DNA from: Lachnospiraceae bacterium
Lineage (GTDB): Bacteria > Bacillota > Clostridia > Lachnospirales > Lachnospiraceae
Assembly: GCA_020859905.1 (NCBI GenBank)
Contig: JAJBVI010000160.1
Location: 1-44,683, forward strand
Direction of reading: 5' to 3'
Length of the DNA stretch: 44,683 nt
The position numbers and the translations under genes were made by a program. Shown here piece by piece: positions 2,068 to 41,609 of this stretch (its first letter is position 1; each line of letters opens with the position of its first letter). Under the pieces are notes generated by a model, which had not been told where the DNA came from, did no database searches, and saw nothing but the letters and a program-made list of their open reading frames with translations.

Positions 2068-3255
2068 ATGAATAAAAGAGAAATTTCCGAAATCAAAAAG
2101 ACCTTTACGAAGGAACGCTGCTGCATCACCCGGCTGGCCGGCTGCTATGTGGACGCGGATAAGAATAAAGTCGTACAGTTCCGGGAATCTTTCCTCTCCC
2201 TCCCGGATGAGGAGTTGTATAAGTATCTCGACATTTTTCGCAAGGCACTGTCCGGAACCATTGGGAAAAACCTCCTGAACATGGAATTCCCTCTGGAACA
2301 GGAAGCCGCCGGCGGCACACAGGCGCGCCTGCTGCTGCTGCGCGACAGCGAATTAACGGACGATACCGTTCTGGAAGGTTTTTACGACCGAATCATTGAA
2401 AGCTGGTATCATCCGGAGAATTACCTGATTCTGCTGATCCACGGTGCCTACGACATCCCGGCCAAAACCTCGGACGGCATGGATCTGGATGACGCATCCG
2501 AGTATGTGTACCGTTTTGTCCTCTGCTGCCTCTGCCCGGTCGCGCTCTCCAAAGCGGGACTCTGTTACAATGCCGAGACGAACAGCATCGAGGACCGCAT
2601 CCGGGACTGGCTGGTGGATATGCCGGATCAGGCATTTCTGTTCCCGGCCTTCAATGATCGGAATACGGACATCCACAGCTTGCTGTACTACTCCAAAAAC
2701 ACAAAGGAGTTCTGTCCCGAGATCACGGAACAGCTCCTGGGCTGCGTACAGCCGCTCCCCGCTCCGCAGCAAAAGGAATCATTTCAGGCGATCCTCGAGG
2801 AGACCCTGGGCGACGCGTGTGTCTATGACACCGTCCGGAATATTCATGAAACGCTGAACGAAATGATAACGGAAAATCAGGACAGCCCTGCGCCGCTGGA
2901 GCTGGACAAACACGAAGTGCGCAGACTGCTTGCTCAAAACGGGGCGCCGGAGGAGAATCTGGAGCGCTTCGAGCAGCAGTATGATGAAGAAATCGGTGCG
3001 AATATGACTGTGATGGCAGATAATATTTCCGATACCCGGAAGTTTGAAGTCCGGACCCCGGAAGTTACCGTAAAAATAAACCCTGAGTACGCAGGAAGCG
3101 TAGAGACAAGGATCATCGACGGAATTCCCAGCCTGGTCATACCGCTGACAGGTGAAGTCGAAGTCAACGGGATTCATGTACGCCGGTCTGCGGAGGATCA
3201 GGAACTGTTCAGCAGCGATCCACGGAGAAACAGGGATGCAGAAAGCATTTTATGA
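2068..3255 (+). CDS. DUF4317 family protein
   Basis: A 395-residue cytoplasmic protein with no signal peptide or membrane segment. The N-terminal block (MNKREISEIKKTF, then RLAGCYVD and FLSLPDEELYKYLDIF) is the recognisable start of the DUF4317 family, common in Lachnospiraceae and of unknown function. The C-terminal third contains a run ending in VRTPEVTVKINPEYAG and a DGIPSLVIP motif. The start at 2068 has GGAG eight bases upstream. The 3' end overlaps the next gene by 20 bp, so the two are probably translationally coupled. No catalytic motif is visible to me and I assign no function. Confidence 0.8.
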   Translation: MNKREISEIKKTFTKERCCITRLAGCYVDADKNKVVQFRESFLSLPDEELYKYLDIFRKALSGTIGKNLLNMEFPLEQEAAGGTQARLLLLRDSELTDDTVLEGFYDRIIESWYHPENYLILLIHGAYDIPAKTSDGMDLDDASEYVYRFVLCCLCPVALSKAGLCYNAETNSIEDRIRDWLVDMPDQAFLFPAFNDRNTDIHSLLYYSKNTKEFCPEITEQLLGCVQPLPAPQQKESFQAILEETLGDACVYDTVRNIHETLNEMITENQDSPAPLELDKHEVRRLLAQNGAPEENLERFEQQYDEEIGANMTVMADNISDTRKFEVRTPEVTVKINPEYAGSVETRIIDGIPSLVIPLTGEVEVNGIHVRRSAEDQELFSSDPRRNRDAESIL

Positions 3256-3730
3256 CAGGCTCTCCCGCCCGTTCGAGGAAAATGAGGAAAAAAAGAAACG
3301 GCTGATCGCGGCAAACAGTGTTGTCACAAAAGCCTTTTATATCGCCTATCCGGTTCTGCTGGTCATTCTGGCGCTCACACGGGATGATCGCTTTTTCCGC
3401 GTCCTGCTTGTACCGCTGATCTCATTTGTGATTGTCAGCGTGTTCCGCAGGGTCTGCGGCGCCAGGCGTCCCTATGAGATCTGGGATGCCCCGCCTCTGA
3501 TCCGGAAAGATACCCGGGGGAACTCCTTTCCCAGCCGCCATGTCTTTTCCGTCTTCATGATCGCCATGGCAGCGGCATATGTCTGCCTGCCGGCCGCCAT
3601 TGCCATGATAGCCGCAGGCGTATTTCTCGCCGCGGTGCGCGTCATCATCCGTGTGCATTTCGTGAGAGATGTCGTCGCCGGAACCCTGATCGGCATTGGG
3701 CTGGGGCTGCTGGGTTTTTTTGTTCTGTAA
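3236..3730 (+). CDS. PAP2-family membrane phosphatase
   Basis: A 164-residue integral membrane protein of the phosphatidic acid phosphatase 2 superfamily, acting on lipid phosphates or undecaprenyl diphosphate at the membrane. The three PAP2 motifs are present in order: the RRP region (CGARRPYE), the PSRH motif (FPSRHVFS, a variant of PSGH), and RVHFVRDVVAG with the catalytic His and Asp. Several hydrophobic helices surround them. The start at 3236 is inside the DUF4317 coding end and has GGAG upstream; a longer in-frame start at 3152 has no ribosome site. The second motif has Arg where Gly is usual. The substrate cannot be told from sequence. Confidence 0.8.
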   Translation: MQKAFYDRLSRPFEENEEKKKRLIAANSVVTKAFYIAYPVLLVILALTRDDRFFRVLLVPLISFVIVSVFRRVCGARRPYEIWDAPPLIRKDTRGNSFPSRHVFSVFMIAMAAAYVCLPAAIAMIAAGVFLAAVRVIIRVHFVRDVVAGTLIGIGLGLLGFFVL

Positions 3731-3739
3731 CCCGCCGAT

Positions 3740-4246
3740 TCAGTCAACATCATCATACTGCAGCATATAATCCGAACAGTCAACCCCATAGTATTCAATC
3801 TGATCCGGGTTCACATACTGCATGCCAAGCTTCCGCAGGGCGACAGACTCCACCTCTGAGAGATTCTCCGAAGCAGCCAGCCGCTTTTCCGCAAGGTCAT
3901 TACTCTCAGCCAGCGCGGATACCTGCGCCTCCAGGGATGCAATCCGGTCGGAACGACTGTACACCTGATTTTGCAGAGCCAGAAACGAACAGCAGACAAT
4001 TACGAAAAATCCGAGCGATACAGCCAGAAATATCAAAGAACGGGCATTAATCGCCTGCTCTCTCTGCCGATTCTCCCGCGCGCGGCGCTGTATCTCTCTC
4101 CTGCGTCTCTGCTCCGCCCGTGCCGCCTTTACATGTGCCGGCACCTTCACAGGTTCCAGTACCCAAGAGCCGTTCGCCGCCTTTACAAAACGGCAGTACC
4201 TTCCCTTTTCCGATTCCTGTGCCCCTTCAGGCAAGAATTGATTCAT
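3740..4246 (-). CDS. FtsL/DivIC-like single-pass coiled-coil protein
   Basis: About 168 residues: a very basic N-terminal cytoplasmic stretch rich in Arg (AEQRRRREIQRRARENR), one membrane helix (LIFLAVSLGFFVIVCC), then a predicted coiled coil (RIASLEAQVSALAESNDLAEKRL) and a tail with LRKLGMQYVNPDQIEYY. This is the layout of septum-formation initiators FtsL/DivIC, where the outside coiled coil pairs with division partners. The start at 4246 has CGGAG ten bases upstream; an ATG at 4279 has poor spacing. The gene is convergent with the PAP2 gene, leaving nine bases between stops. It is away from any division cluster, so a specific division role is inference. Confidence 0.65.
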   Translation of the reverse strand: MNQFLPEGAQESEKGRYCRFVKAANGSWVLEPVKVPAHVKAARAEQRRRREIQRRARENRQREQAINARSLIFLAVSLGFFVIVCCSFLALQNQVYSRSDRIASLEAQVSALAESNDLAEKRLAASENLSEVESVALRKLGMQYVNPDQIEYYGVDCSDYMLQYDDVD

Positions 4247-4293
4247 ACCACAATATCTCCGCTGTTTATCATTCTCCAACCACTATATCTTGT

Positions 4294-4322
4294 AGTATAA
4301 ACCATTCTGTCGGATATGTACA
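4294..4322 (-). promoter_or_regulatory. Promoter for the FtsL-like gene
   Basis: Read on the minus strand: -35 TGTACA (4322-4317), a 17-bp spacer and -10 TATACT (4299-4294). Confidence 0.55.
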
Positions 4323-4601
4323 GCACTTTCGGCAAAGTTTTCTGACTGTGCGGCTGCAATCCAATGATTTGTCTGCGGCAATTTATTGCAATGCAGGCCT
4401 CTCATTTTCTGAAATTTTACATTTTTTTTAATATGGTGCATAGAAACTTAACAAAAAAACGATTGCATTCTCAGAAAAATGGTGGTAGGGTGTAAACCAA
4501 CCCTTAAACTGGCACATTAGTACAGCGCTCAGCCTGCTGCGCAAAGCGAATCACGCAGCGTATGTACGGAGTGTCCACGGCCGGAAAGGAGGAAATGCGT
4601 G
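4323..4601. other. Intergenic region upstream of the FUSC-type gene
   Basis: About 280 bases between divergent genes. I see a small stem AGGGT/ACCCT near 4486-4503, a GC-rich stem CTGCG/CGCAG near 4533-4556 inside a longer GTAC-flanked segment, and the AAAGGAGG of the next gene at 4586-4593. I could not find a convincing promoter with both boxes for the plus-strand gene, nor a known riboswitch. Confidence 0.4.
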
Positions 4602-6182
4602 ATGTTTGAGCAAATGAAGAAAATCAGAATGAACCCTGAGAGCCTGAAAGGTGCAGTGATCCCCACGATCGTGGTCACCTGCATTTTTTTCCTCAATTAT
4701 TTTTGTTTTGGGACCGACAATACGATCATCGGACCCTGCCTGACCCTGTCCTACCTGTATTTCCGCGGCATGAGCAATCCGTTCGGCAGTATGATCAAGA
4801 CCTTTCTGATCTATGTGTCGATCGCGATCCTGGCCTGGATCGCGGGGATCAGCCTGCCGCTTTGCATCATCGTCAACGCGATGGCCTTATTCTGGATCGT
4901 GTACGAGCTGAACGATGAGCAGCACCCCACGAACTACTACACGCCGGGGATGGCATTCATCCTGTTTCAGCTGTTTCCGGTCACCGGATCCGGCGTAGTC
5001 ACCCGGATTGAAGCGATCATCGCTTCCTTTGCCATCACTTTCTTTTTCCTGATCATCCTGCCTTCGAGAAAGAACAGGACGACGGTCCGGGATTACGTAA
5101 AAGAAGGGCTGGATCTGAGCGATGAGCTGATCCAGGCATACCAGATGGATGATGAAGACGGGATATTTCTGTATCAGGATCGGCTCCGGCGAAAGAACGA
5201 GCAGATCTCGGATGCCATCTACTTACATAACTACTCCTCCTTCCGGCATAACCGGAGAGTCAACTGGTACTGCCGCTTTGTCGCGCTGTTCCAGGTATTT
5301 ACGACATTGTGTGAGACGAAAGGCCAGGAAGACCGGACAAAGAACATGCAGAATCTCCTGAAGAATTTTAAGGAATTATTTGACGGTGAGGAACAGTACG
5401 GCAGCCGGACGAAGCTGTCATTCCGCACGGACAGACCGGATATCCGTTCCTTCCGCCTGCGTTTTGCTCTGCGGCAGGTCATTATCATGACGCCGTGTAT
5501 GATCTATGCGTACCTCTGCCTGCTGGGAAACGGTTACTGGCTCCCGGTGTCCGTGTTTTTCATGCTGGTTCCCCTCTATGAGAACATGGCAAACCGCGTG
5601 GGCGGACGGCTGAAGGGCACACTGGCCGGGGTTGTGCTGTGTCTCGTTCTGTATTCCGTCTTTCCGGGCATACAGGCGCATATTGTGCTTTTGATCATTT
5701 TTAATTTCCTGATCTACAGCGCGACGGGATATGCGACCTCCGTGGCCTATATCACCTGCGCCATACTGGCGCTCGGCATCACGCCGGACAACATCCTGTT
5801 CACTCTGGCGGAACGGCTGGTATACACCTTCGGCGGTGCCGCTCTGACTGTATTTGCCAGCAAATGTATTTTCCCGATCCGGATCAGGCCGGAGGCGGAT
5901 TTCCTGTATGAGAAGCTGATCGAACTCCAGACGCAGATGGAACAGCTGGCGACCAGGGAATTTGCAGACAAAGAAGAGGAACGTCACGAGAAGGATCAGC
6001 TGCTCATCCATTCCTACCTGCTGAGCCGGCGCCTGCGCCTTTATAATGAATCACTGCGCACGGAGGATCAGAACCGCGAGCTCATGGAACAGCTCAACGA
6101 GCATATGATGAACATGTCCTTCTATCTGATCCGGCATTTTACCGGGATCCGGGCAGACGTAGTCGAAAACGCGGAAGCATGA
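4602..6182 (+). CDS. FUSC/aromatic-acid-exporter-type membrane protein
   Basis: A 526-residue protein with two blocks of hydrophobic helices, roughly residues 20-155 and 295-430, separated by a charged cytoplasmic segment and followed by a charged C-terminal helical tail. This duplicated arrangement is that of the FUSC superfamily (YccS, AaeB, aromatic acid exporters), proposed to move small organic acids out of the cell. The start is taken as the ATG at 4602, eight bases after AAAGGAGG; the GTG directly before it is possible. The region after the stop holds a duplicated 67-bp sequence. The substrate is unknown. Confidence 0.75.
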   Translation: MFEQMKKIRMNPESLKGAVIPTIVVTCIFFLNYFCFGTDNTIIGPCLTLSYLYFRGMSNPFGSMIKTFLIYVSIAILAWIAGISLPLCIIVNAMALFWIVYELNDEQHPTNYYTPGMAFILFQLFPVTGSGVVTRIEAIIASFAITFFFLIILPSRKNRTTVRDYVKEGLDLSDELIQAYQMDDEDGIFLYQDRLRRKNEQISDAIYLHNYSSFRHNRRVNWYCRFVALFQVFTTLCETKGQEDRTKNMQNLLKNFKELFDGEEQYGSRTKLSFRTDRPDIRSFRLRFALRQVIIMTPCMIYAYLCLLGNGYWLPVSVFFMLVPLYENMANRVGGRLKGTLAGVVLCLVLYSVFPGIQAHIVLLIIFNFLIYSATGYATSVAYITCAILALGITPDNILFTLAERLVYTFGGAALTVFASKCIFPIRIRPEADFLYEKLIELQTQMEQLATREFADKEEERHEKDQLLIHSYLLSRRLRLYNESLRTEDQNRELMEQLNEHMMNMSFYLIRHFTGIRADVVENAEA

Positions 6183-30047: not shown

Positions 30048-30317
30048 ATGGCAAATGCTTGTAATGTTAATTTCAAACTGGACTCAGATGTAAAAAAAAG
30101 TATGGAGCAGGTTTGTTCTGAACTCGGTCTTTCCATGAGTGCGGCGTTTACGATTTTTGCAAAAAAAGTCGGTCGTGAAAAACGAATTCCCTTTGATGTA
30201 TCCATAGATCCGTTTTACAGCGAAGACAATCTTGCGCTGCCTGAGAAACGGATCCGAGATGTGCAAACAGGTAAAACCACCTTACATGAACACGACTTAA
30301 TCCGGGAGGATGAATGA
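30048..30317 (+). CDS. RelB/DinJ-family antitoxin
   Basis: An 89-residue protein with an N-terminal ribbon-helix-helix DNA-binding domain (NVNFKLDSDVKKSMEQVCSELGLSMSAAFTIFAKKV, in pieces across residues 5-42), the classic RelB/DinJ signature, and a flexible C-terminal part that would wrap the toxin. It normally neutralises its toxin and represses the cassette promoter. Start at 30048 with AAAGGAGG upstream. Its stop overlaps the start of the toxin frame by 4 bp (ATGA), the usual coupled arrangement. Since the toxin frame is disrupted, the antitoxin may now be a free repressor. Confidence 0.9.
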   Translation: MANACNVNFKLDSDVKKSMEQVCSELGLSMSAAFTIFAKKVGREKRIPFDVSIDPFYSEDNLALPEKRIRDVQTGKTTLHEHDLIREDE

Positions 30318-30576
30318 GAAAAACATGGCATGATGAAGCAGGGGAGGAATACCTTTACTGGCAGACTCAGGACAGGAAAACCCTGAGAAAAATCAACCAG
30401 CTTTTGCGCGATATAGACAGAAACGGATATCAATGTTCAGGGAAACCGGAAGCTCTGTCCGGTAATCTCACCGGTTTTTGGAGCGTTCGCATTGATAAAA
30501 AAACAGGATTGTATTTCGAGTTATCGATGAAACCATTGAAATTTATCAATGCGGTTCACATTACCAGGAAAAATAA
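30314..30576 (+). pseudogene. YoeB/Txe-family toxin with frameshift in an A-tract
   Basis: The first 60 or so codons encode a RelE-superfamily mRNA interferase of the Txe/YoeB type (KTWHDEAGEEYLYWQ, LRKINQLLRDI, SGKPEALSGNLTGFWSVRID). At about 30498-30504 a run of seven A breaks the frame. Reading one base back restores the rest of a standard YoeB end (NRIVFRVIDETIEIYQC, then GSHY) and a stop at 30574-30576. So one A appears lost from an original run of eight. It may be an inactive pseudogene, a sequencing error, or a gene expressed by -1 slippage or transcriptional slippage on the A-tract. In the unshifted frame it runs on into the next gene, which has its own start. Confidence 0.85.
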
Positions 30577-30592
30577 TATACGGAGAAAGTCT

Positions 30593-32620
30593 ATGATTAT
30601 GTACATGTGTAAATATGCACCGATCGAGATCATCGAAGCTTTCGGCAACACGGTGGTCCTGACGGAACCGCACGTCACAAATTTTACGCAGGCGGACACA
30701 CTGATGCATCCGAACATGTGCTCGTTTGTAAAAGCGGTGCTCGAGGATTTTGAAAACCGTAATTATGAAGGCATGCTTTTTACCGGCTGCTGCGACAGTT
30801 CGCGGCGGCTGTTTGACACGCTGAGGCGCCTCCATCCGGAGAAGTTTTTCTTCTGCTTCGACCTGCCGCGGAAGGTGAATGCAATCACTGTTTCTCTCTA
30901 TGTGAACCAGATCGAACAGCTGATCCGAGAGTATACCGCTTTTTCCGGGAAATCATTCGATCCGGACTGGCTTGCAAAAAAGTGCAGCCATGAGTTTGAC
31001 ATGCAGATCCGGAAAAAGGAACTCATCAAGGCCGGAAAGATCCCGAAGAAAGAGAGCGACTTAAGAATCTGCCTGGCGGGCGCCCGGCCCGGCTCCGAGA
31101 TCAAACAGCTGATCACGGATCACGGGGCAGAGATCGCTCTCGACCTGACCTGCACCGGCATCTGCCGGGAATACCGGGTGGATGAAACGAATGTGCTGCA
31201 CAGCTACGCCAACAGCCTGCTGAACCAGCTTCCGTGCATGCGGATGCATCAGACAGACAGCCGGAAACAGCGCGTCCTCGACATGGCCGGCGATCTGGAC
31301 GGCATCATCTACCACACCGTGAAGTTCTGCGATATTTACTCCTATGAGTATGCTGACATGAAAGCGCATGCGGGGCTTCCCATGGTAAAGCTGGAGACCG
31401 ATGCCACCAGTCAGTGCGCCGGGCAGATTTTAACCAGAGTCGAAGCCTTTCTGGAATCCTTGCGGACACGCAGGGGAACTCAGACAACCGGGCATACCCC
31501 AGACGGATACGGGAAACCCACCCGACAAAATCAAGACGCCCGGGACATGCCCGGAAACGCCCCCGGCAGCCGTAACGCCGATGACAGCACAGGCTCCGGC
31601 AAAACATCTGCCAATACAGCCTGTGGAACCTGCTCAGGAAATGTCACGGACACGTCCTGTGCGTTCTGCACGGAAAATGTCACGGACACGTCCTGTGCGT
31701 TCTGCCGCGGCGAAGACAGCTCCGATGTTCCCCGCCTGTCCGGGGAGGATGTAAAAGCGGATCTGGCCGAACACATGGGAAACGAATTTCCCCACAGTAA
31801 AAAAGGAGACCACCCTATGTATATTATGGGAATCGACAGCGGATCCACCTCCACAAATGCTGTCATCATCAACGAAAAACAGGAGATTCTTTCCTGGGCA
31901 GTCATCCGCACAGGAGCCAAGAGCGGAGAGAGTGCAGAACGGATTCTGCAGGAAATCCTGAACCGGACACAGCTGCAAAGAGAAGATCTGAACCTGATCG
32001 TGTCCACCGGATACGGCCGCGTCAGCATTCCGTTTGCAGACAAAAATGTGACGGAGATCAGCTGCCACGGCAAAGGCGCGCACTTTCTGAATCCCGCTGT
32101 CCGCACGATTCTGGATATCGGCGGTCAGGACAGCAAGGCCATCCGCTTAAACAAACATGGTGATGTGATTGATTTTGTCATGAACGACAAATGCGCCGCC
32201 GGGACCGGCCGTTTTCTGGAAATGATGGCGCGTACTCTGGAGATCAGCATCGATGAACTCGGTCCGCTCTCCCTGCAGTCAAAGGAAAATGTGGAGATCA
32301 GCAGCATGTGCTCGGTCTTTGCCGAGTCAGAGGTCATCTCCCTGATCGCGCAAAATAAAGAAACCGCGGACATCGCCCACGGCATTCACAAAGCCATCGC
32401 AGGAAAAGCGATTTCTCTGTTAAAGAGAGTCGGCCTCGAAAAAGAATTTATGATGACCGGCGGCGTGGCAAAAAACCCCGGCGTTGTAAAAGTGCTGGAG
32501 GAACAGCTCGACGCCCCCCTCTATATCTATGAACAGCCTGAGATTGTCGGCGCCCTCGGCGCTGCCCTGTTCGGGCTGGAAAGCCTGAAGCCAGGAGAAA
32601 AATCATTCGGCGCGCTATAG
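30593..32620 (+). CDS. 2-hydroxyacyl-CoA dehydratase subunit fused to its ATP-dependent activase
   Basis: A 675-residue fusion. Residues about 1-290 are a second dehydratase D-family subunit (Cys in FTGCCDSS, DLTCTGIC, VKFCDIYSYEY; ends in QILTRVEAFLESL). About 290-405 is a low-complexity linker with three CxxC motifs (CGTC and two CAFC in 12-residue units). From Met409 (31817) it is a BcrA/HgdC-type activase of the ASKHA fold: GIDSGSTSTNAV, IGGQDSKAI, the cluster Cys in DKCAAGTGRFLE and SSMCSVFAESE, and TGGVAKN. Start at 30593 after CGGAG. The internal ATG at 31817 has its own AAAAGGAG, so a separate activase could also be made. Such subunits are usually separate genes. Confidence 0.85.
   Translation: MIMYMCKYAPIEIIEAFGNTVVLTEPHVTNFTQADTLMHPNMCSFVKAVLEDFENRNYEGMLFTGCCDSSRRLFDTLRRLHPEKFFFCFDLPRKVNAITVSLYVNQIEQLIREYTAFSGKSFDPDWLAKKCSHEFDMQIRKKELIKAGKIPKKESDLRICLAGARPGSEIKQLITDHGAEIALDLTCTGICREYRVDETNVLHSYANSLLNQLPCMRMHQTDSRKQRVLDMAGDLDGIIYHTVKFCDIYSYEYADMKAHAGLPMVKLETDATSQCAGQILTRVEAFLESLRTRRGTQTTGHTPDGYGKPTRQNQDARDMPGNAPGSRNADDSTGSGKTSANTACGTCSGNVTDTSCAFCTENVTDTSCAFCRGEDSSDVPRLSGEDVKADLAEHMGNEFPHSKKGDHPMYIMGIDSGSTSTNAVIINEKQEILSWAVIRTGAKSGESAERILQEILNRTQLQREDLNLIVSTGYGRVSIPFADKNVTEISCHGKGAHFLNPAVRTILDIGGQDSKAIRLNKHGDVIDFVMNDKCAAGTGRFLEMMARTLEISIDELGPLSLQSKENVEISSMCSVFAESEVISLIAQNKETADIAHGIHKAIAGKAISLLKRVGLEKEFMMTGGVAKNPGVVKVLEEQLDAPLYIYEQPEIVGALGAALFGLESLKPGEKSFGAL
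31638..31704. repeat. 36-bp in-frame duplication encoding CxxC units
   Basis: Copies 31638-31668 and 31674-31704 are identical over 31 bases (AAATGTCACGG...GCGTTCTGC) and encode NVTDTSCAFC twice. Confidence 0.92.
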
Positions 32621-35851: not shown

Positions 35852-37807
35852 ATGCCGCAGGGAGAATACGCCGCCGCCCTCAAGGCAGGAAAAAAAGAGA
35901 TACAGGCACGGGCAGCGGCCGGACTGCCGACCGGGCTGCCCGCGCTGGATGACATTCTGGAGCATGTCGAGATCCGCGGGGAGGTACCGCTCGGTCTGAT
36001 CGACATCCCCGCGGAGCTAATCGTCGGGACGAAGACCGTCAGCCGCACCACATCCTTTGCCCCCAACTTCATGCCGATCCTCGAGGAAGGTTCGGAATTT
36101 TCCATGAAATGGAACAGTCTGTGCCGCGCACATCTGCAGGAGGGCATCCGTGAACCGATCAAAGTATATGAATATTTAAACAGATACTATGTCCTGGAGG
36201 GGAATAAGCGCGTCAGCGTCCTGAAATATTTCGATGCCACCAGCATCCCCGGCTATGCGACGCGCATCATCCCCGCCTGGAAAGATACGCGTGAGATCAG
36301 GATTTACTATGAGTTTCTGGATTTTTACAACGAGACCAGCATCAACTACCTGGAATTTACCCGGGAGGGAAGCTACCGGAGACTCAGCCACCTGACCGGC
36401 CACAGGGTGAATGACCGCTGGAGTCCGGACGACCGCATGGATTTCCGCTCCTGCTACAACCGGTTTTCGGATGCCTTTGAGGAACGGGGCGGGCAAAAAC
36501 TGTCCTGTACGACCGGCGACGCGTTTCTGACCTATCTCAGCCTGTTCGGCTATGAGGAAGTCAAAAAAGAAACGGCCGCCGATTTTAAAACAAATCTCAA
36601 AAAGCTCTGGGATGAGATCGAACTGAATTTCCGCGACGCCGGACCGGAGGAGAAGATCGACATGAAGCTGGATCCGACGCCGGATACCAGAAAAGGCCTG
36701 ATCTCACAGATTCTGACCGTCTCCTCGTCTTCCGCCCGCGCGGTTACCAAAATCGCCTTTATCCACACCAGGACGACGGACACCTCCAGCTGGACCTACT
36801 CCCACGAGCTTGGGCGCATGTACGTGAATGATATTTTTCACGGGGAAGTAGAGACCGCCGCCTATGAAAACAATTTCACCGACGCGGACGCACAGAGTGC
36901 CATTGAGCAGGCAATCAGTGACGGCAACACGATCATTTTCACAACGACTCCTGTTTTCCTCGCCGCCAGCATCAAGGCCGCGATCAACCACCCGGAGATC
37001 AGAATTTTAAACTGCTCCCTGAACACCTCGCACAAGTACATACGGACTTACTATGCCAGAATATTTGAGGCGAAGCTGCTGAACGGAGTTCTCGCGGGCA
37101 TCATGACGGACACCAATACGATCGGTTACATCGCCGACTACCCTATCACCGCCATGCCCGCCACCATCAACGCATTCGCCATCGGAGTGAAAATGGTGAA
37201 TCCTCAGGCGCGGATTTTTCTGGAGTGGTCCACCGCGAAGGAAAATAAGGGAGTGGATCTCACGGAAAAATTATACAGCAAAGGCGCCACTTACATTTCT
37301 CATCTGGATATGATTGTCCCCCGGCATGCCACGCGGCGCTATGGGTTGTACCGCGTCAACGGGGAGACGCCGGTGAACCTCGCTTTCCCGGTTCTTGACT
37401 GGGGGAAATACTACGAGCGCATCATCCGGAACATCCGGCACGGCACCTGGAATGCCGAGAGCAAAACCGACGCAAAAAAAGCGGTGAGCTATTTCTGGGG
37501 CATGTCCTCGGGAGTGGTGGACGTCGTCTGGTCTTCCGCCATCCCCGCGGAGACGAGAAATCTTCTGGAGACCCTGAAGCATTCCATTACGCGCTACGAT
37601 TTTAACCCGTTCGCCGGTGTGCTGAACTCACAGGCCGGCACGGTTCAGTCCGATCCCGCGCACAGGATGTCCACAAATGAGATTATAGCCATAGACTGGC
37701 TGGCGGACAACATAACGGGCTGCATTCCCGCCATCAGGGACCTGGTTCCTGAAGCACAGGCCGTCGTGCGCCAGGAGGGCATCCGCAGGGAGGATGGCTC
37801 CGAATGA
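35852..37807 (+). CDS. ParB-like/BMP-family (Med-like) fusion protein
   Basis: A 651-residue protein without a signal peptide or lipobox. The N-terminal part (about 60-140) resembles a ParB/sulfiredoxin-type nuclease-like domain (YLNRYYVLEGNKRVSVLKYF). Residues about 300-610 resemble the BMP basic membrane/substrate-binding fold (VTKIAFIHTRTTDTSSWTYSH, TIIFTTTPVFLAASIKAA, NTIGYIADYPITAMPATINAFAIG, SHLDMIVP). BMP proteins are usually secreted nucleoside-binding lipoproteins; here the location must be cytoplasmic, so a ligand-sensing role is more likely. Start at 35852 after AAGGAGG. Its 3' end is duplicated downstream. It lies about 120 bp after galM. Confidence 0.75.
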   Translation: MPQGEYAAALKAGKKEIQARAAAGLPTGLPALDDILEHVEIRGEVPLGLIDIPAELIVGTKTVSRTTSFAPNFMPILEEGSEFSMKWNSLCRAHLQEGIREPIKVYEYLNRYYVLEGNKRVSVLKYFDATSIPGYATRIIPAWKDTREIRIYYEFLDFYNETSINYLEFTREGSYRRLSHLTGHRVNDRWSPDDRMDFRSCYNRFSDAFEERGGQKLSCTTGDAFLTYLSLFGYEEVKKETAADFKTNLKKLWDEIELNFRDAGPEEKIDMKLDPTPDTRKGLISQILTVSSSSARAVTKIAFIHTRTTDTSSWTYSHELGRMYVNDIFHGEVETAAYENNFTDADAQSAIEQAISDGNTIIFTTTPVFLAASIKAAINHPEIRILNCSLNTSHKYIRTYYARIFEAKLLNGVLAGIMTDTNTIGYIADYPITAMPATINAFAIGVKMVNPQARIFLEWSTAKENKGVDLTEKLYSKGATYISHLDMIVPRHATRRYGLYRVNGETPVNLAFPVLDWGKYYERIIRNIRHGTWNAESKTDAKKAVSYFWGMSSGVVDVVWSSAIPAETRNLLETLKHSITRYDFNPFAGVLNSQAGTVQSDPAHRMSTNEIIAIDWLADNITGCIPAIRDLVPEAQAVVRQEGIRREDGSE

Positions 37808-37876
37808 AAACTATACCGCACAGGCCGACCGGAGACAGACAGGCCGGCATCCGCAGGGAGGATGGCTCCGAATGAA
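37778..37876. repeat. 31-bp exact direct repeat, 68-bp period, at the BMP gene end
   Basis: The sequence GGCATCCGCAGGGAGG with its continuation through GGCTCCGAATGAA occurs exactly at 37778-37808 and 37846-37876. Each copy contains an AGGGAGG ribosome site and an overlapping stop/start GAATGA. Confidence 0.95.
37804..37875 (+). CDS. Short coupled leader reading frame created by duplication
   Basis: A 23-residue frame starting at the first GAATGA and ending in the second. It has AGGGAGG upstream, starts overlapping the BMP stop, and its stop overlaps the metallophosphoesterase start. Its last residues, GIRREDGSE, repeat the BMP C-terminus. It is probably a by-product of the 68-bp duplication, possibly used for re-initiation rather than for a functional peptide. 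Confidence 0.45.
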   Translation: MKTIPHRPTGDRQAGIRREDGSE

Positions 37877-38480
37877 GATTATGGCGATCGCGGACGCTGC
37901 GTCGCCGGCGCTCTGGGAACACTACAATGACAACAAACTGTACGACACCGATCTGATCGTTTCCTGCGGGGATCTCGATCCCCGCTATCTGTCGTTTCTC
38001 GTCACATGCGTGAATGTGCCTCTTTTGTATGTACACGGAAACCACGACGAATGCTATGACGACATTCCGCCGGACGGATGCATCTGCATCGACGACCGCG
38101 TCTATGTCCATAACGGCATCCGTTTTCTCGGTCTGGGCGGCTGTTTCCCCTACAACAAAGGAAAATATATGTACACGGAAGCACAGATGAAGCGGCGGAT
38201 CCGCAGGGTCTCCCGCCAGATCCGGAAATACGGAGGTCTGGATGTGCTCGTCACACATGCGCCCGTGCGCGGCATCGGGGACGGGGAGGATCTGCCCCAC
38301 CGCGGCTACCAGGCATTCATCCCGCTTCTGGAAAAATGCCGTCCGCCGTATATGCTGCACGGACATGTCCACATGCAGTATGACTATACCCTGAAACGAG
38401 AAAACGAGTATCAGGATACTAAAATTATCAACGCGTACGAGAAATATTTCCTGGAGATACAGGATGGCGGGGCTGTTTAG
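37872..38480 (+). CDS. Metallophosphoesterase (calcineurin-like)
   Basis: A 202-residue cytoplasmic dimetal phosphoesterase. Motifs: IADAAS (first Asp; the usual DxH His is absent), SCGDLDPRY (GD), VHGNHDE (GNHD), THAPVRGIGD (metal His) and LHGHVHMQYD (GHxH). This is close to short YfcE/ycf-type metallophosphoesterases acting on cyclic nucleotides or phosphodiesters; the substrate is open. The start at 37872 has AGGGAGG ten bases upstream and overlaps the stop of the short leader frame, so it is coupled to the BMP-like gene. The missing first-motif His could lower affinity for one metal. Confidence 0.82.
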   Translation: MKIMAIADAASPALWEHYNDNKLYDTDLIVSCGDLDPRYLSFLVTCVNVPLLYVHGNHDECYDDIPPDGCICIDDRVYVHNGIRFLGLGGCFPYNKGKYMYTEAQMKRRIRRVSRQIRKYGGLDVLVTHAPVRGIGDGEDLPHRGYQAFIPLLEKCRPPYMLHGHVHMQYDYTLKRENEYQDTKIINAYEKYFLEIQDGGAV

Positions 38481-38554: not shown

Positions 38555-39107
38555 TTAGCGAAGCCCCAGGTAATCGGATATCCCTCCGCAGATGGCCTCC
38601 ACGAGCCGCACCTGGTAATCCTCCGCGCCAAGTAGCGCCTCCTCTGTCGGATTCGAGAGAAAACCGCACTCCACGATCACGGTAGGCACTGATGTCTTTT
38701 TCAGAATGTAGTAGCTCTCATTTGCCTTCGCCGCGCGTGTGTTCGAAGGATCCAGATTCTCGATCAGGCTCCGCTGCAGAGCCTCCGCCAGCGCTTCTCC
38801 CTGCGCGGAATCCCCGTAATAAAACACCTGCGCCCCGCTGACCGCGCTGTCCGTATAGCTGTTCTGGTGGATGCTGACCGCCAGTGCCGGCGCGGTCTCT
38901 TCAATGAGTGCCACACGGTTTTTCAGGTCGGAAACCTTGACACTCTCCGCGTCCTCGTCCGCCAGACTTTCGTCCTCCTCCCGGGTCATCACGACCTCAT
39001 ATCCCAGCTCCTCCAGGGCATCACGCAGTTTTATGGCAATGTCCAGATTGATATCCTTCTCCTTCGTGCCGGACACGCCGACTTTACCGGGGTCATCGCC
39101 GCCGTGG
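38555..39107 (-). pseudogene. N-acetylmuramoyl-L-alanine amidase (CwlD-like), 5' end removed by the element
   Basis: The coding sequence from HGGDDPGKVG onward is a normal amidase_3 domain: KEKDINL (Glu ligand), VSIHQNS (His ligand) and VECGFLSN (catalytic Glu). Upstream of the first zinc His the sequence stops matching: the expected DPGHGG reads PPHGG, and what precedes it is AT-rich and unrelated. The signal/membrane anchor and first strand are therefore missing. An open frame continues to 39250 but its GTG start has no ribosome site. CwlD-type amidases make the muramic delta-lactam of spore cortex; the 5' half should lie at the far side of the element. Confidence 0.82.
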
Positions 39108-39191
39108 GGCGGTAGTAAATTGCGGTAATTTGTACCGATGTGGTACGTTTGATTTTTCTTAATGTGCTTCGTAGAAAATTGAAATCTGCTG

Positions 39192-39220
39192 TTGACAAAT
39201 TTCAAAAGAAATGGTATGTT
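39192..39220 (+). promoter_or_regulatory. Plus-strand promoter at the element end
   Basis: A perfect -35 TTGACA (39192-39197), a 17-bp spacer and -10 TATGTT (39215-39220). The only thing downstream on this strand before a terminator is the structured segment 39227-39300. Confidence 0.65.
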
Positions 39221-39226
39221 TCTTAT

Positions 39227-39300
39227 CAAAGAGAAGCGGTTTTTTGCCACTCGTCTACAATGCTTTGTAGTCCTTGAGTGGGTTGCTCGCTTCTTTTTTT
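39227..39300 (+). ncRNA. Candidate small structured RNA convergent with the nuclease-like gene
   Basis: Three nested stems: AGAAGCG (39232-39238) with CGCTTCT (39288-39294), CCACTC (39247-39252) with GAGTGG (39276-39281), and CTACAA with TTGTAG (39255-39260, 39265-39270), then six T. With the promoter at 39192-39220 this predicts a transcript of about 74 bases. It is antisense to the last codons and stop of the gene ending at 39255. It may instead be only the bidirectional terminator of that gene, but its T-tract is on the plus strand. Confidence 0.5.
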
Positions 39301-39779
39301 ATGTCCAGGAGATCGTATAAATACATCTTTCCAAACACTGTGCAGTTAATAAGCAACCGCGCCGAGTAGATATGATAAATATCCGTCTTAATCTCATTGT
39401 CATAGGTCGGCATTGCAAAACGTGTCTTATAGTAATACCAGCCATTGCCTGCCATAAAAGAATGCTTGTCCTTCTGATTCGCATGAAATTCCTTTTCCGT
39501 TGCGATTTCCAGCATTTCAGGAATTGCTTGAGCAGCATTCGCCTTCACTTTGGCATTTGACCCTTTAAGATGTCTTATGTATTTTGAACCGCTGAACTCA
39601 TCAGGAAATTCATTCCCAATATAAATGATATCCTGTGTTTCCGCGATTGTAACAATTTCACCAACATATTTCTTTAAATAACTCTCAACCGCATCCCAGT
39701 CAATACTATGCTTGTTTTTAAAAATAACCTCAGGCAAAACAACGATCTTATGACCATTTTCATCCATTACAATCTTCAT
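39255..39779 (-). CDS. PBECR/MuF-type nuclease-toxin-like protein
   Basis: A 174-residue protein with no signal or membrane segment. It resembles the stand-alone domain found at the C-terminus of MuF-type phage proteins and polymorphic toxins, the barnase-EndoU-colicin-RelE-like group (IIYIGNEFPDEFSGSKY, KANAAQAIPEMLEIAT, FMAGNGWYYYKTRFAMP, KMYLYDLLDIKKEASNPL). If correct it would be an RNase-like toxin, but I cannot point to catalytic residues and the family call rests on memory of the pattern. It is 35 bp downstream of the recombinase on the same strand, so probably co-transcribed. A candidate small RNA converges on its 3' end. Confidence 0.55.
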   Translation of the reverse strand: MKIVMDENGHKIVVLPEVIFKNKHSIDWDAVESYLKKYVGEIVTIAETQDIIYIGNEFPDEFSGSKYIRHLKGSNAKVKANAAQAIPEMLEIATEKEFHANQKDKHSFMAGNGWYYYKTRFAMPTYDNEIKTDIYHIYSARLLINCTVFGKMYLYDLLDIKKEASNPLKDYKAL

Positions 39780-39813
39780 ATTCTTTTATTCACCTTCTTT
39801 TTCGTCCATGACT

Positions 39814-41412
39814 TTAATTTTCATAGGTATCCGGAAATAAATGTGCCAGCTCGTCTGAAAAGTTGTAAGTGATTTTGATTCTGTGATCCTCGTAAACCCG
39901 AATCTCATGGATCATCTCCACTACCATATCCCGATCCAGCTTTTCTACATTCCGGAATGTGAGCAGCCGTTTTACCCACGGGCTTTCCAGAACATCTCCG
40001 GCAGTCCTCTTTTCTGACTGGCGCTCCAGATCTTCCATCTGCTTTGTAAGCATTTCTTCTTTTTTTACATAATCCTGTCTGTAAGCGACAAACTCGTCTT
40101 TGGAAATCAGACCCTCCCGGTAATCCTCATAAACTGCTTTTTTGAGGTTTCTCAACTTCTCCAGTTCCGCGGACAAACGGTTTCTTTCATTTCCGTTTTG
40201 ACGTTTTGCGAAAGCCTCCTGCGCCTGATTCTGCTCAAGCAATTCCTGTAGATTCTCCGCACTCTCTATGATTGCGTTCAGGTCGTTTCGTATCACATTC
40301 TCAAGAACCGAATATGGAATTGCATGTGCGCTGCAATACTGTCTGCCGGAGCGGACATAAGTTCCGCAATAGTAGTTGATATTCCCGGCGCCATGTCCGG
40401 ACGATCCGATTTTCTTCACCAGCGCCCTGCCGCAGTCCCCGCATTTCAGGAATCCGGCAAACACAGACATATTAGAGTTCAGGTCAAGCTCGCGCGTCCG
40501 GCGTCCCAATAATTCCTGTGTCTTCTGCCATGTTTCCGGATCAATGATGGCCTCGTATGTATGCTCCACAATAATCCAGTCCTCTTTGTCCACACTCTTC
40601 TGCCTGCCCTTCATCCGCTGGGTTTTCCTGCCCTGCACCATATTTCCGGCATACATCTCATTTTTCAGAATGCGGTTCACCGTGGAATACGTCCAGTAAG
40701 AAGTGCTTTCCAGCTTCCGGCTGTTCCGATAATTTTCGCCATTCATCCGCTTATATTCGGACGGACACACAATCCCATCTTCATTCAACGCTTTCGCAAT
40801 GCTGTTTTTCCCATATCCGCTGACATACATTTTGAAAATCCGGCGCACCACATTCGCGGCGTAATCGTCAATCACCAGCTTATTTTTGTCAATGGGAGAT
40901 TTCCGATAACCATAGGATGCAAACGCCCCGATAAACTCCCCTGCCTTCTGCTTGGTTTTCATGGAGGCATGGACTTTCTTTGAGATGTCCCTGGCGTACT
41001 GCTCGTTGAAAATATTTTTGATCGGCAGCAGGATATCATAAGCCTGTTTCATGCTGTCAATATTATCTGTGATAGCGATAAACCGCACATCGTTATCCGG
41101 AAAATAACGCTCCAGATACCTGCCTGTCTCAATATAATCCCTCCCGAAGCGGGATAGGTCCTTGACAATGACACAATTTACTTTTCCATCCTCGATATCA
41201 TCCATCATTCTCAGAAAAGAAGGTCTTTGAAAGCTAAGACCCGTAAATCCATCGTCCACATAAGTATCATAGACAACAAATTCGGTCCGTCCTTTCAGAT
41301 AATCCGCGATCAGTTTCCTCTGGTTTCCGATGCTGTCACTTTCTGCCTTATCACCATCCTCTCTGGATAACCTGATATATTCAGCTACGTTGAAAAGAGT
41401 TTGTTTCTTCAT
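39814..41412 (-). CDS. Large serine recombinase (site-specific integrase)
   Basis: About 532 residues. The N-terminal resolvase domain has EYIRLSREDGD with the catalytic Ser (about residue 15), DDGFTGLSFQRPSF and VKDLSRFGRDYIETGRYLE. A recombinase domain follows (YGYRKSPIDKNKLVIDDYAA, SIAKALNEDGI, WTYSTVNRILKNEMYAGN), then a zinc ribbon (CGDCGRALVKK ... YYCGTY ... YCSAHAI) and a long coiled coil (about 390-475). This full set is that of phage and ICE integrases such as TnpX/phiC31 types. The ATG at 41412 has AGGTGAG close by; a GTG at 41421 is an alternative. The upstream small gene overlaps it. Confidence 0.93.
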   Translation of the reverse strand: MKKQTLFNVAEYIRLSREDGDKAESDSIGNQRKLIADYLKGRTEFVVYDTYVDDGFTGLSFQRPSFLRMMDDIEDGKVNCVIVKDLSRFGRDYIETGRYLERYFPDNDVRFIAITDNIDSMKQAYDILLPIKNIFNEQYARDISKKVHASMKTKQKAGEFIGAFASYGYRKSPIDKNKLVIDDYAANVVRRIFKMYVSGYGKNSIAKALNEDGIVCPSEYKRMNGENYRNSRKLESTSYWTYSTVNRILKNEMYAGNMVQGRKTQRMKGRQKSVDKEDWIIVEHTYEAIIDPETWQKTQELLGRRTRELDLNSNMSVFAGFLKCGDCGRALVKKIGSSGHGAGNINYYCGTYVRSGRQYCSAHAIPYSVLENVIRNDLNAIIESAENLQELLEQNQAQEAFAKRQNGNERNRLSAELEKLRNLKKAVYEDYREGLISKDEFVAYRQDYVKKEEMLTKQMEDLERQSEKRTAGDVLESPWVKRLLTFRNVEKLDRDMVVEMIHEIRVYEDHRIKITYNFSDELAHLFPDTYEN

Positions 41413-41417
41413 GTTGC

Positions 41418-41609
41418 TCACCTGCGGGCCGCTGTCCCTGTGGCTATTGTACCGCAGGAAGCGACATTTTCCAATTCATTTTTACAAGTTTCATCCGGTT
41501 TTTGCAGATGCGTCCGGATCAGACGGCGGAGCATTTCCTCCGACGTGCAGCGGGAGAGAAATTCTCTTTCGATCACATATGATATTTTTTCGGATTTCTT
41601 TTCTCTCAC
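41418..41609 (-). CDS. Small protein overlapping the recombinase start
   Basis: A 63-residue frame starting at a GTG (41609) with AGGAG seven bases upstream; its stop overlaps the first possible recombinase start (AGGTGAGC). The sequence is helical and charged (EKISYVIEREFLSRCTSEEMLRRLIRTHLQ). Small genes of this type often precede serine recombinases in Firmicute elements, possibly as a directionality or expression partner, but I know no function. The good ribosome site and the overlap make it likely real. Confidence 0.6.
   Translation of the reverse strand: MREKKSEKISYVIEREFLSRCTSEEMLRRLIRTHLQKPDETCKNELENVASCGTIATGTAARR

Follow-up and report, generated by a model that had tools for sequence, protein, structure and literature searches.

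The locus analysed here raises the question of what a binding protein of the BMP type, whose lineage is exported, does when it is joined to a ParB-like domain and apparently retained inside the cell. In the window (the whole stretch of 44,683 nucleotides that was analysed), the forward-strand gene at 35852..37807 encodes a protein of 651 aa. A GGAGG ribosome-binding site precedes the ATG at 35852, the stop codon ends at 37807, and the start position is common to the homologs; RNA folding upstream of the gene was nothing unusual (z -0.92). A whole-protein AlphaFold2 model built from 39 homologs (mean pLDDT 86) predicts, in this order, an N-terminal ParB/sulfiredoxin (Srx) domain, a helical linker and, at the C-terminus, a BMP domain (PF02608). 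The BMP domain was the sole match in a Pfam search of the 651-aa protein, and searches of NCBIfam, PHROGs and PADLOC returned no confident name. When the whole model was compared with the PDB using Foldseek, AtzT came first, and Noc of B. subtilis was also among the matches listed.

The C-terminal part is the most readily recognised. It forms a BMP (PnrA/AtzT-like) domain of the periplasmic-binding-protein (PBP) fold, residues 294-626 (36731..37729, plus strand), in which PF02608 matched residues 299-484 with an E value of 1.4e-18 and 67.4 bits, for a curated cut-off of 24.1. PDB sequence searches matched the same residues 294-626 to AtzT (6pi5) and to a Brucella lipoprotein (3s99). Among solved structures the nearest is that of the guanine-binding lipoprotein AtzT, which was recovered at E 1.4e-32 by sequence and at E 6.1e-24 by Foldseek, and whose match to the family profile covers positions 287-616 (E 1.3e-52). 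The BMP-like fold proposed for this region by the first-pass annotation is thus borne out.

Since the BMP domain is related to the substrate-binding proteins of transporters, the protein might conceivably be an atypical one of these, which would reach its place by a non-classical export route. As a control, nine stand-alone BMP proteins of the same class (358-407 aa) were examined with the same hydropathy measure. Their N-terminal maxima ranged from 1.57 to 2.84, whereas those of the 39 fused homologs were 0.23-1.35; a strict lipobox pattern was found in 6/9 of the exported proteins, and neither a lipobox, a signal nor a hydrophobic N-terminus in any of the 39 fused ones, in agreement with the earlier claim that the protein has no signal peptide. 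Furthermore, the stand-alone BMP proteins adjoin an ATPase and/or permease-like ORFs, whereas the flanks of the fusion show no recurrent ABC transporter cluster. The fusion, the sole protein of its genome that PF02608 matches, bears in addition a nucleotide-type domain and has a phosphoesterase partner. On the evidence of signal peptide and neighbours a transporter role was rejected, leaving non-classical export with hardly any probability, and the fusion protein is predicted from its sequence to be cytoplasmic, with no export signal.

The nature of the N-terminal half had to be established by other means, since PF02195 matched neither the fusion protein nor its 39 homologs in Pfam, and TIGR00180 did not match the fusion protein; both gave weak matches in remote relatives of the family. 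The evidence for the ParB assignment therefore comes from the fold, the motif and intermediate families. Folded alone with AlphaFold2, the N-terminal 278 residues gave a pLDDT of 87.7, and all PDB fold matches listed for this model were ParB, Noc, KorB, PadC, sulfiredoxin or SbnI. The core of the predicted fold, residues 41-141 (35972..36274, plus strand), matched Noc (7ol9), KorB (8qa9), Srx (6ky4) and SbnI; superposition of the 6ky4 core gave a TM-score of 0.66 by target length and an rmsd of 2.8 Å over 88 columns. A PDB sequence search with the N-terminus alone found nothing. Likewise, the direct profile comparison of A2 with ParB proteins of related genomes was weak (E 0.019, probability 2.4%), and the remote family A3 bridges these profiles (A3-A2, E 8e-15; A3-ParB, E 1.8e-4). 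Within the segment EGNKRVSVLKYF (residues 116-127), E116, G117, N118, K119, R120, S122 and K125 are invariant in 39 homologs, and residues 116-120 (EGNKR; 36197..36211, plus strand) constitute a GxxR P-motif. According to a survey of ParB-CTPase-fold proteins (PMC12704722), GxxR is the P motif of this fold and served there as a binding-site control, and ParB/Srx domains bind CTP, ATP or GTP, for which the P-motif Arg is needed. Structure prediction thus recovered the ParB-like front end anticipated by the first-pass annotation: as modelled, the N-terminal domain has a ParB/Srx fold with a GxxR P-motif.

A ParB fold calls to mind DNA, and one may envisage a ligand-responsive regulator resembling PurR or LacI in which ParB-type DNA binding replaces the LacI helix-turn-helix (HTH). 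Such a plan, a PBP fold attached to a DNA-binding domain, is known from PurR, itself among the Foldseek matches, and the fold match to a Noc-DNA complex in the PDB covers 236 columns, helical segments included. However, whole-length superposition of the N-terminal model on ParB proteins was poor (rmsd 14-20 Å), which indicates that the second domain either takes up another position or is something other than an HTH. Moreover, no HTH family of Pfam matched the fusion protein or its homologs, and in the 20 homologs listed the first 265 residues carry a net negative charge. The helical middle domain (residues 147-259; 36290..36628, plus strand), predicted by AlphaFold2 and carrying an invariant YYEFLDFY at 152-159, corresponds to a region that resembles DUF4032 (PF13224) in remote relatives. 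Judged from HTH searches and charge, DNA binding by the fusion finds no support, and we regard such a regulator as decidedly unlikely. The source genome (2.25 Mb in 225 contigs), in which the window lies on contig C223 and which the homologs place near the Lachnospiraceae, also encodes two ordinary ParB_N proteins.

Some members of the wider family were encountered under phage names. Bacillus phage G gp57 (L085), a 202-aa protein, contains the ParB-like core, with 33% identity across 94 residues, and no metallophosphoesterase lies near it. Two contigs labelled as phage carry the family (MT836456.1, positions 1639-2454, and BFVD A0A8S5LUW4), one being 50% identical to the N-terminal part and the other showing a fold match along about 500 columns; either these are bacterial DNA under a wrong label, or phages do carry the family.

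The more robust result concerns the gene that follows in the window. It encodes a metallophosphoesterase (MPE) of 202 aa (37872..38480, plus strand), assigned to Pfam Metallophos and carrying the motifs GD, GNHD, THAP and GHVH. Of 80 homologous loci taken from genome contigs, 77 have this one MPE beside the fusion and on its strand; it follows the fusion at 71 of them and precedes it at the other 6. The three loci with no adjacent MPE are one at a contig edge (L017), one that lacks it (L078) and a second gene copy (L021), the first copy in that genome (L013) being accompanied by the MPE. In a Lachnospiraceae sample of one genome per genus (n=150), the fusion was present in 54 genera, the MPE in 55 and both in 54, so that every fusion-bearing genus also has the MPE and a single genome has the MPE alone (hypergeometric p 2e-40, a value that ignores shared ancestry). 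No other neighbour of the fusion was conserved among the flanks outside the window's close relatives. The metallophosphoesterase partner suggested by the earlier reading is therefore a conserved one.

A common operon is not universal, given that in a few genomes the contig or the strand of the fusion differs from that of the MPE; in L200 (family f154) they stand tail to tail, with the fusion at 2501-4471 on the plus strand and the MPE at 4468-5055 on the minus strand. With regard to catalysis, GD, GNHD, H129 and GHxH are intact, and the Asp of the motif I DxH is kept but its His is missing in 21/21 aligned sequences, so the activity could be altered or lost. A PDB sequence search with the MPE alone found nothing. 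At the junction of the two genes (37778..37876, plus strand), the 31-bp segment GGCATCCGCAGGGAGGATGGCTCCGAATGAA spans the end of the fusion gene and is present twice, about 68 bp apart, the duplicated segment carrying the ribosome-binding site of the MPE and the second copy its gene start. As fusion and MPE overlap by 1-4 bases at this place in 19 relatives, the duplication looks recent and local.

The MPE also matches the PADLOC candidate family PDC-S10 (E 2.7e-16), and the distribution of the fusion is patchy (54/150 genera), as would be expected of an anti-phage defence pair. However, PADLOC has no family that matches the ParB-BMP protein, the flanking genes are housekeeping or unrelated, and the pair is usually present as one chromosomal copy with long-term co-inheritance. 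A role in defence thus appears very improbable.

Elsewhere in the window, the 768-aa ORF at 30314-32620 starts with a part that by eye is similar to a YoeB/Txe toxin and continues as a 2-hydroxyacyl-CoA dehydratase-activator-like protein, the two being separated by Cys-rich repeated linkers. Beyond the MPE, the region 38555-41421 contains an amidase-like gene, conserved beside the fusion/MPE pair in close relatives, and near it a serine-recombinase-like gene (39814-41421, minus strand), which is possibly a mobile-element insertion.

The partnership is not confined to the BMP fusion. In 399 genomes of the phylum, the MPE subfamily was found in 25 (no borderline matches listed) and the ParB-like protein likewise in 25, the two occurring together in 24. 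In six families the MPE adjoins ParB-like proteins with a ferredoxin-like C-terminal module or none: in four of them (f65, f104, f18, f50) it lies directly upstream of a ParB-like protein of about 310-340 aa ending in Cys clusters, which match 4Fe-4S ferredoxin families in the f104 proteins, and in the other two (f107, f72) a tail-less ParB-like protein of about 200 aa precedes it. Four further families (f12, f27, f122, f141) contain both the MPE and a ParB-like core of 125-180 aa at non-adjacent positions. Since the same MPE accompanies shorter ParB-like proteins with a ferredoxin-like tail or no tail, the ParB-like/MPE pair probably predates the BMP fusion, and its third module varies and appears exchangeable. 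In two loci (L096, L097), the pair with the ferredoxin-like tail sits after a gene that resembles nagA by eye.

What the BMP module might sense was considered by aligning its sequence with AtzT. AtzT sandwiches guanine between Tyr45 and Trp194 and forms hydrogen bonds to it from Ser97, Glu165, Asn218, Asn220 and the backbone N of Phe98, and the ligands of the nearest BMP relatives are purine bases rather than nucleosides (PMC6834077). In the Lachnospiraceae-type fusions part of this pocket is kept, Tyr45 corresponding to W314, Ser97 to T366 or Ser, and Asn220 to the invariant D486. The remainder is altered: Glu165 is replaced by Gly (Ala in the window protein), the Trp194 loop is deleted, Phe98, the backbone NH donor of AtzT, becomes Pro, and Thr139 becomes an invariant Lys (K408). 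The stand-alone BMP proteins of the same class retain the AtzT residue set, with Asp at 220 and, like 3s99, His at 218. Among the fusions, only those of families f154 and f169 (L200, L189) have a purine-like pocket, retaining both Glu and Trp, which makes a purine-binding ancestor probable. The fused BMP domain thus probably derives from such an ancestor and was remodelled in the Lachnospiraceae branch, an order of events read from the alignment. The first-pass annotation had suggested nucleoside sensing; with purine bases as the ligands of its relatives, and with Glu165 and the Trp194 loop absent and Pro at Phe98, this is unsupported for the window protein.

The reading that best accounts for these results taken together, to which we assign a probability of about 0.5, is a nucleotide switch or phosphotransferase of the ParB/sulfiredoxin type that is gated by a ligand inside the cell and works with a phosphoesterase; ligand, nucleotide and substrate are inferred. 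In this system of two intracellular proteins, the fusion would provide both the sensor and the switch. Its BMP domain, drawn from a lineage of exported purine-binding proteins and retained in the cytoplasm, would close on a planar small molecule and thereby alter the state of the N-terminal domain. The latter would bind a nucleotide through EGNKR and respond by a conformational switch or by phosphate transfer. This state may control the MPE, which would hydrolyse a phosphoester, or may be opposed by it.

A sharper version of the same explanation is a kinase-phosphatase couple, in which the ParB/Srx domain, like SerK or SbnI, would transfer phosphate to a small molecule, the MPE would remove the same phosphate, and the BMP ligand would set the balance. 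SerK, a kinase with a ParB fold that acts on free serine, was formerly annotated as ParB (PMC5120207), and the fold search with the N-terminal model also listed SbnI. The position just before the P-motif Gly is always acidic (E116 in the 39 homologs, D78 in the remote set), whereas ParB proteins of related genomes have Ala or Ser there, which mildly favours phosphotransfer. Remote relatives also match the SerK model NF053625 (E 1.7e-4 to 6.5e-4), but these matches are weak and far under its curated cut-off, and we consider the couple in this specific form rather unlikely.

The ligand-gated switch or phosphotransferase may belong to something broader. We tentatively propose, as a possibility, an undescribed two-protein signalling or metabolite-control system inside the cells of Firmicutes, consisting of a ParB/Srx nucleotide-dependent switch or kinase, a dedicated, co-inherited MPE and interchangeable sensors: BMP for a small molecule, a 4Fe-4S ferredoxin-like module for redox or iron state, or none.

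ParB-fold proteins are increasingly recognised as general nucleotide switches, and to our knowledge a sensor or an output has been identified for few of them. The present system offers a candidate for each, namely a ligand-binding module, which other lineages replace by a ferredoxin-like one, and a single phosphoesterase that accompanies it in many families. If borne out, this would be a new intracellular sensing circuit in gut Lachnospiraceae and an example of an exported binding protein turned into a cytoplasmic sensor, with R120 as the candidate key residue of the fusion. No account of a ParB-BMP or ParB-MPE pair came to light in a literature search. Lineage-specific fusions are already known as a kind, being reported as such in the ParB-fold survey of December 2025 (PMC12704722), whose main text in PNAS makes no mention of phosphoesterase, BMP or ferredoxin; this suggests that the BMP fusion and its phosphoesterase partner are new.

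Compared with known systems, the fusion shares the ParB/Srx fold, the GxxR motif and a lineage-specific fused domain with the fusion proteins of that fold (ParB, Noc, KorB, SerK, sulfiredoxin, DndB); the domain search of the survey used PF02195, and the present family falls below that model. Canonical ParB of ParABS systems has an HTH, a C-terminal dimerisation domain and a parA neighbour, whereas the fusion has no HTH match and its recurrent neighbour is the MPE, with none of parA type. With SerK and SbnI it has the predicted fold in common, but the sequence similarity is weak and the BMP domain and MPE partner are particular to the fusion system. The MPE shares the Metallophos fold and the GD, GNHD, H and GHxH motifs with calcineurin-like phosphoesterases of the YfcE type; it scores well under the YfcE family cut-off and differs in the motif I His. 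AtzT and 3s99 share the BMP fold and sequence, including the stacking aromatic (W314), T/S366 and D486, yet these are purine-binding BMP proteins, whereas the window protein is predicted to be cytoplasmic, is fused, has no ABC transporter and has changed contact residues. With LacI and PurR, finally, the fusion shares the plan of a cytoplasmic PBP-fold sensor on a regulatory domain, but its N-terminus is ParB/Srx instead of the LacI HTH and its PBP is of the BMP type.
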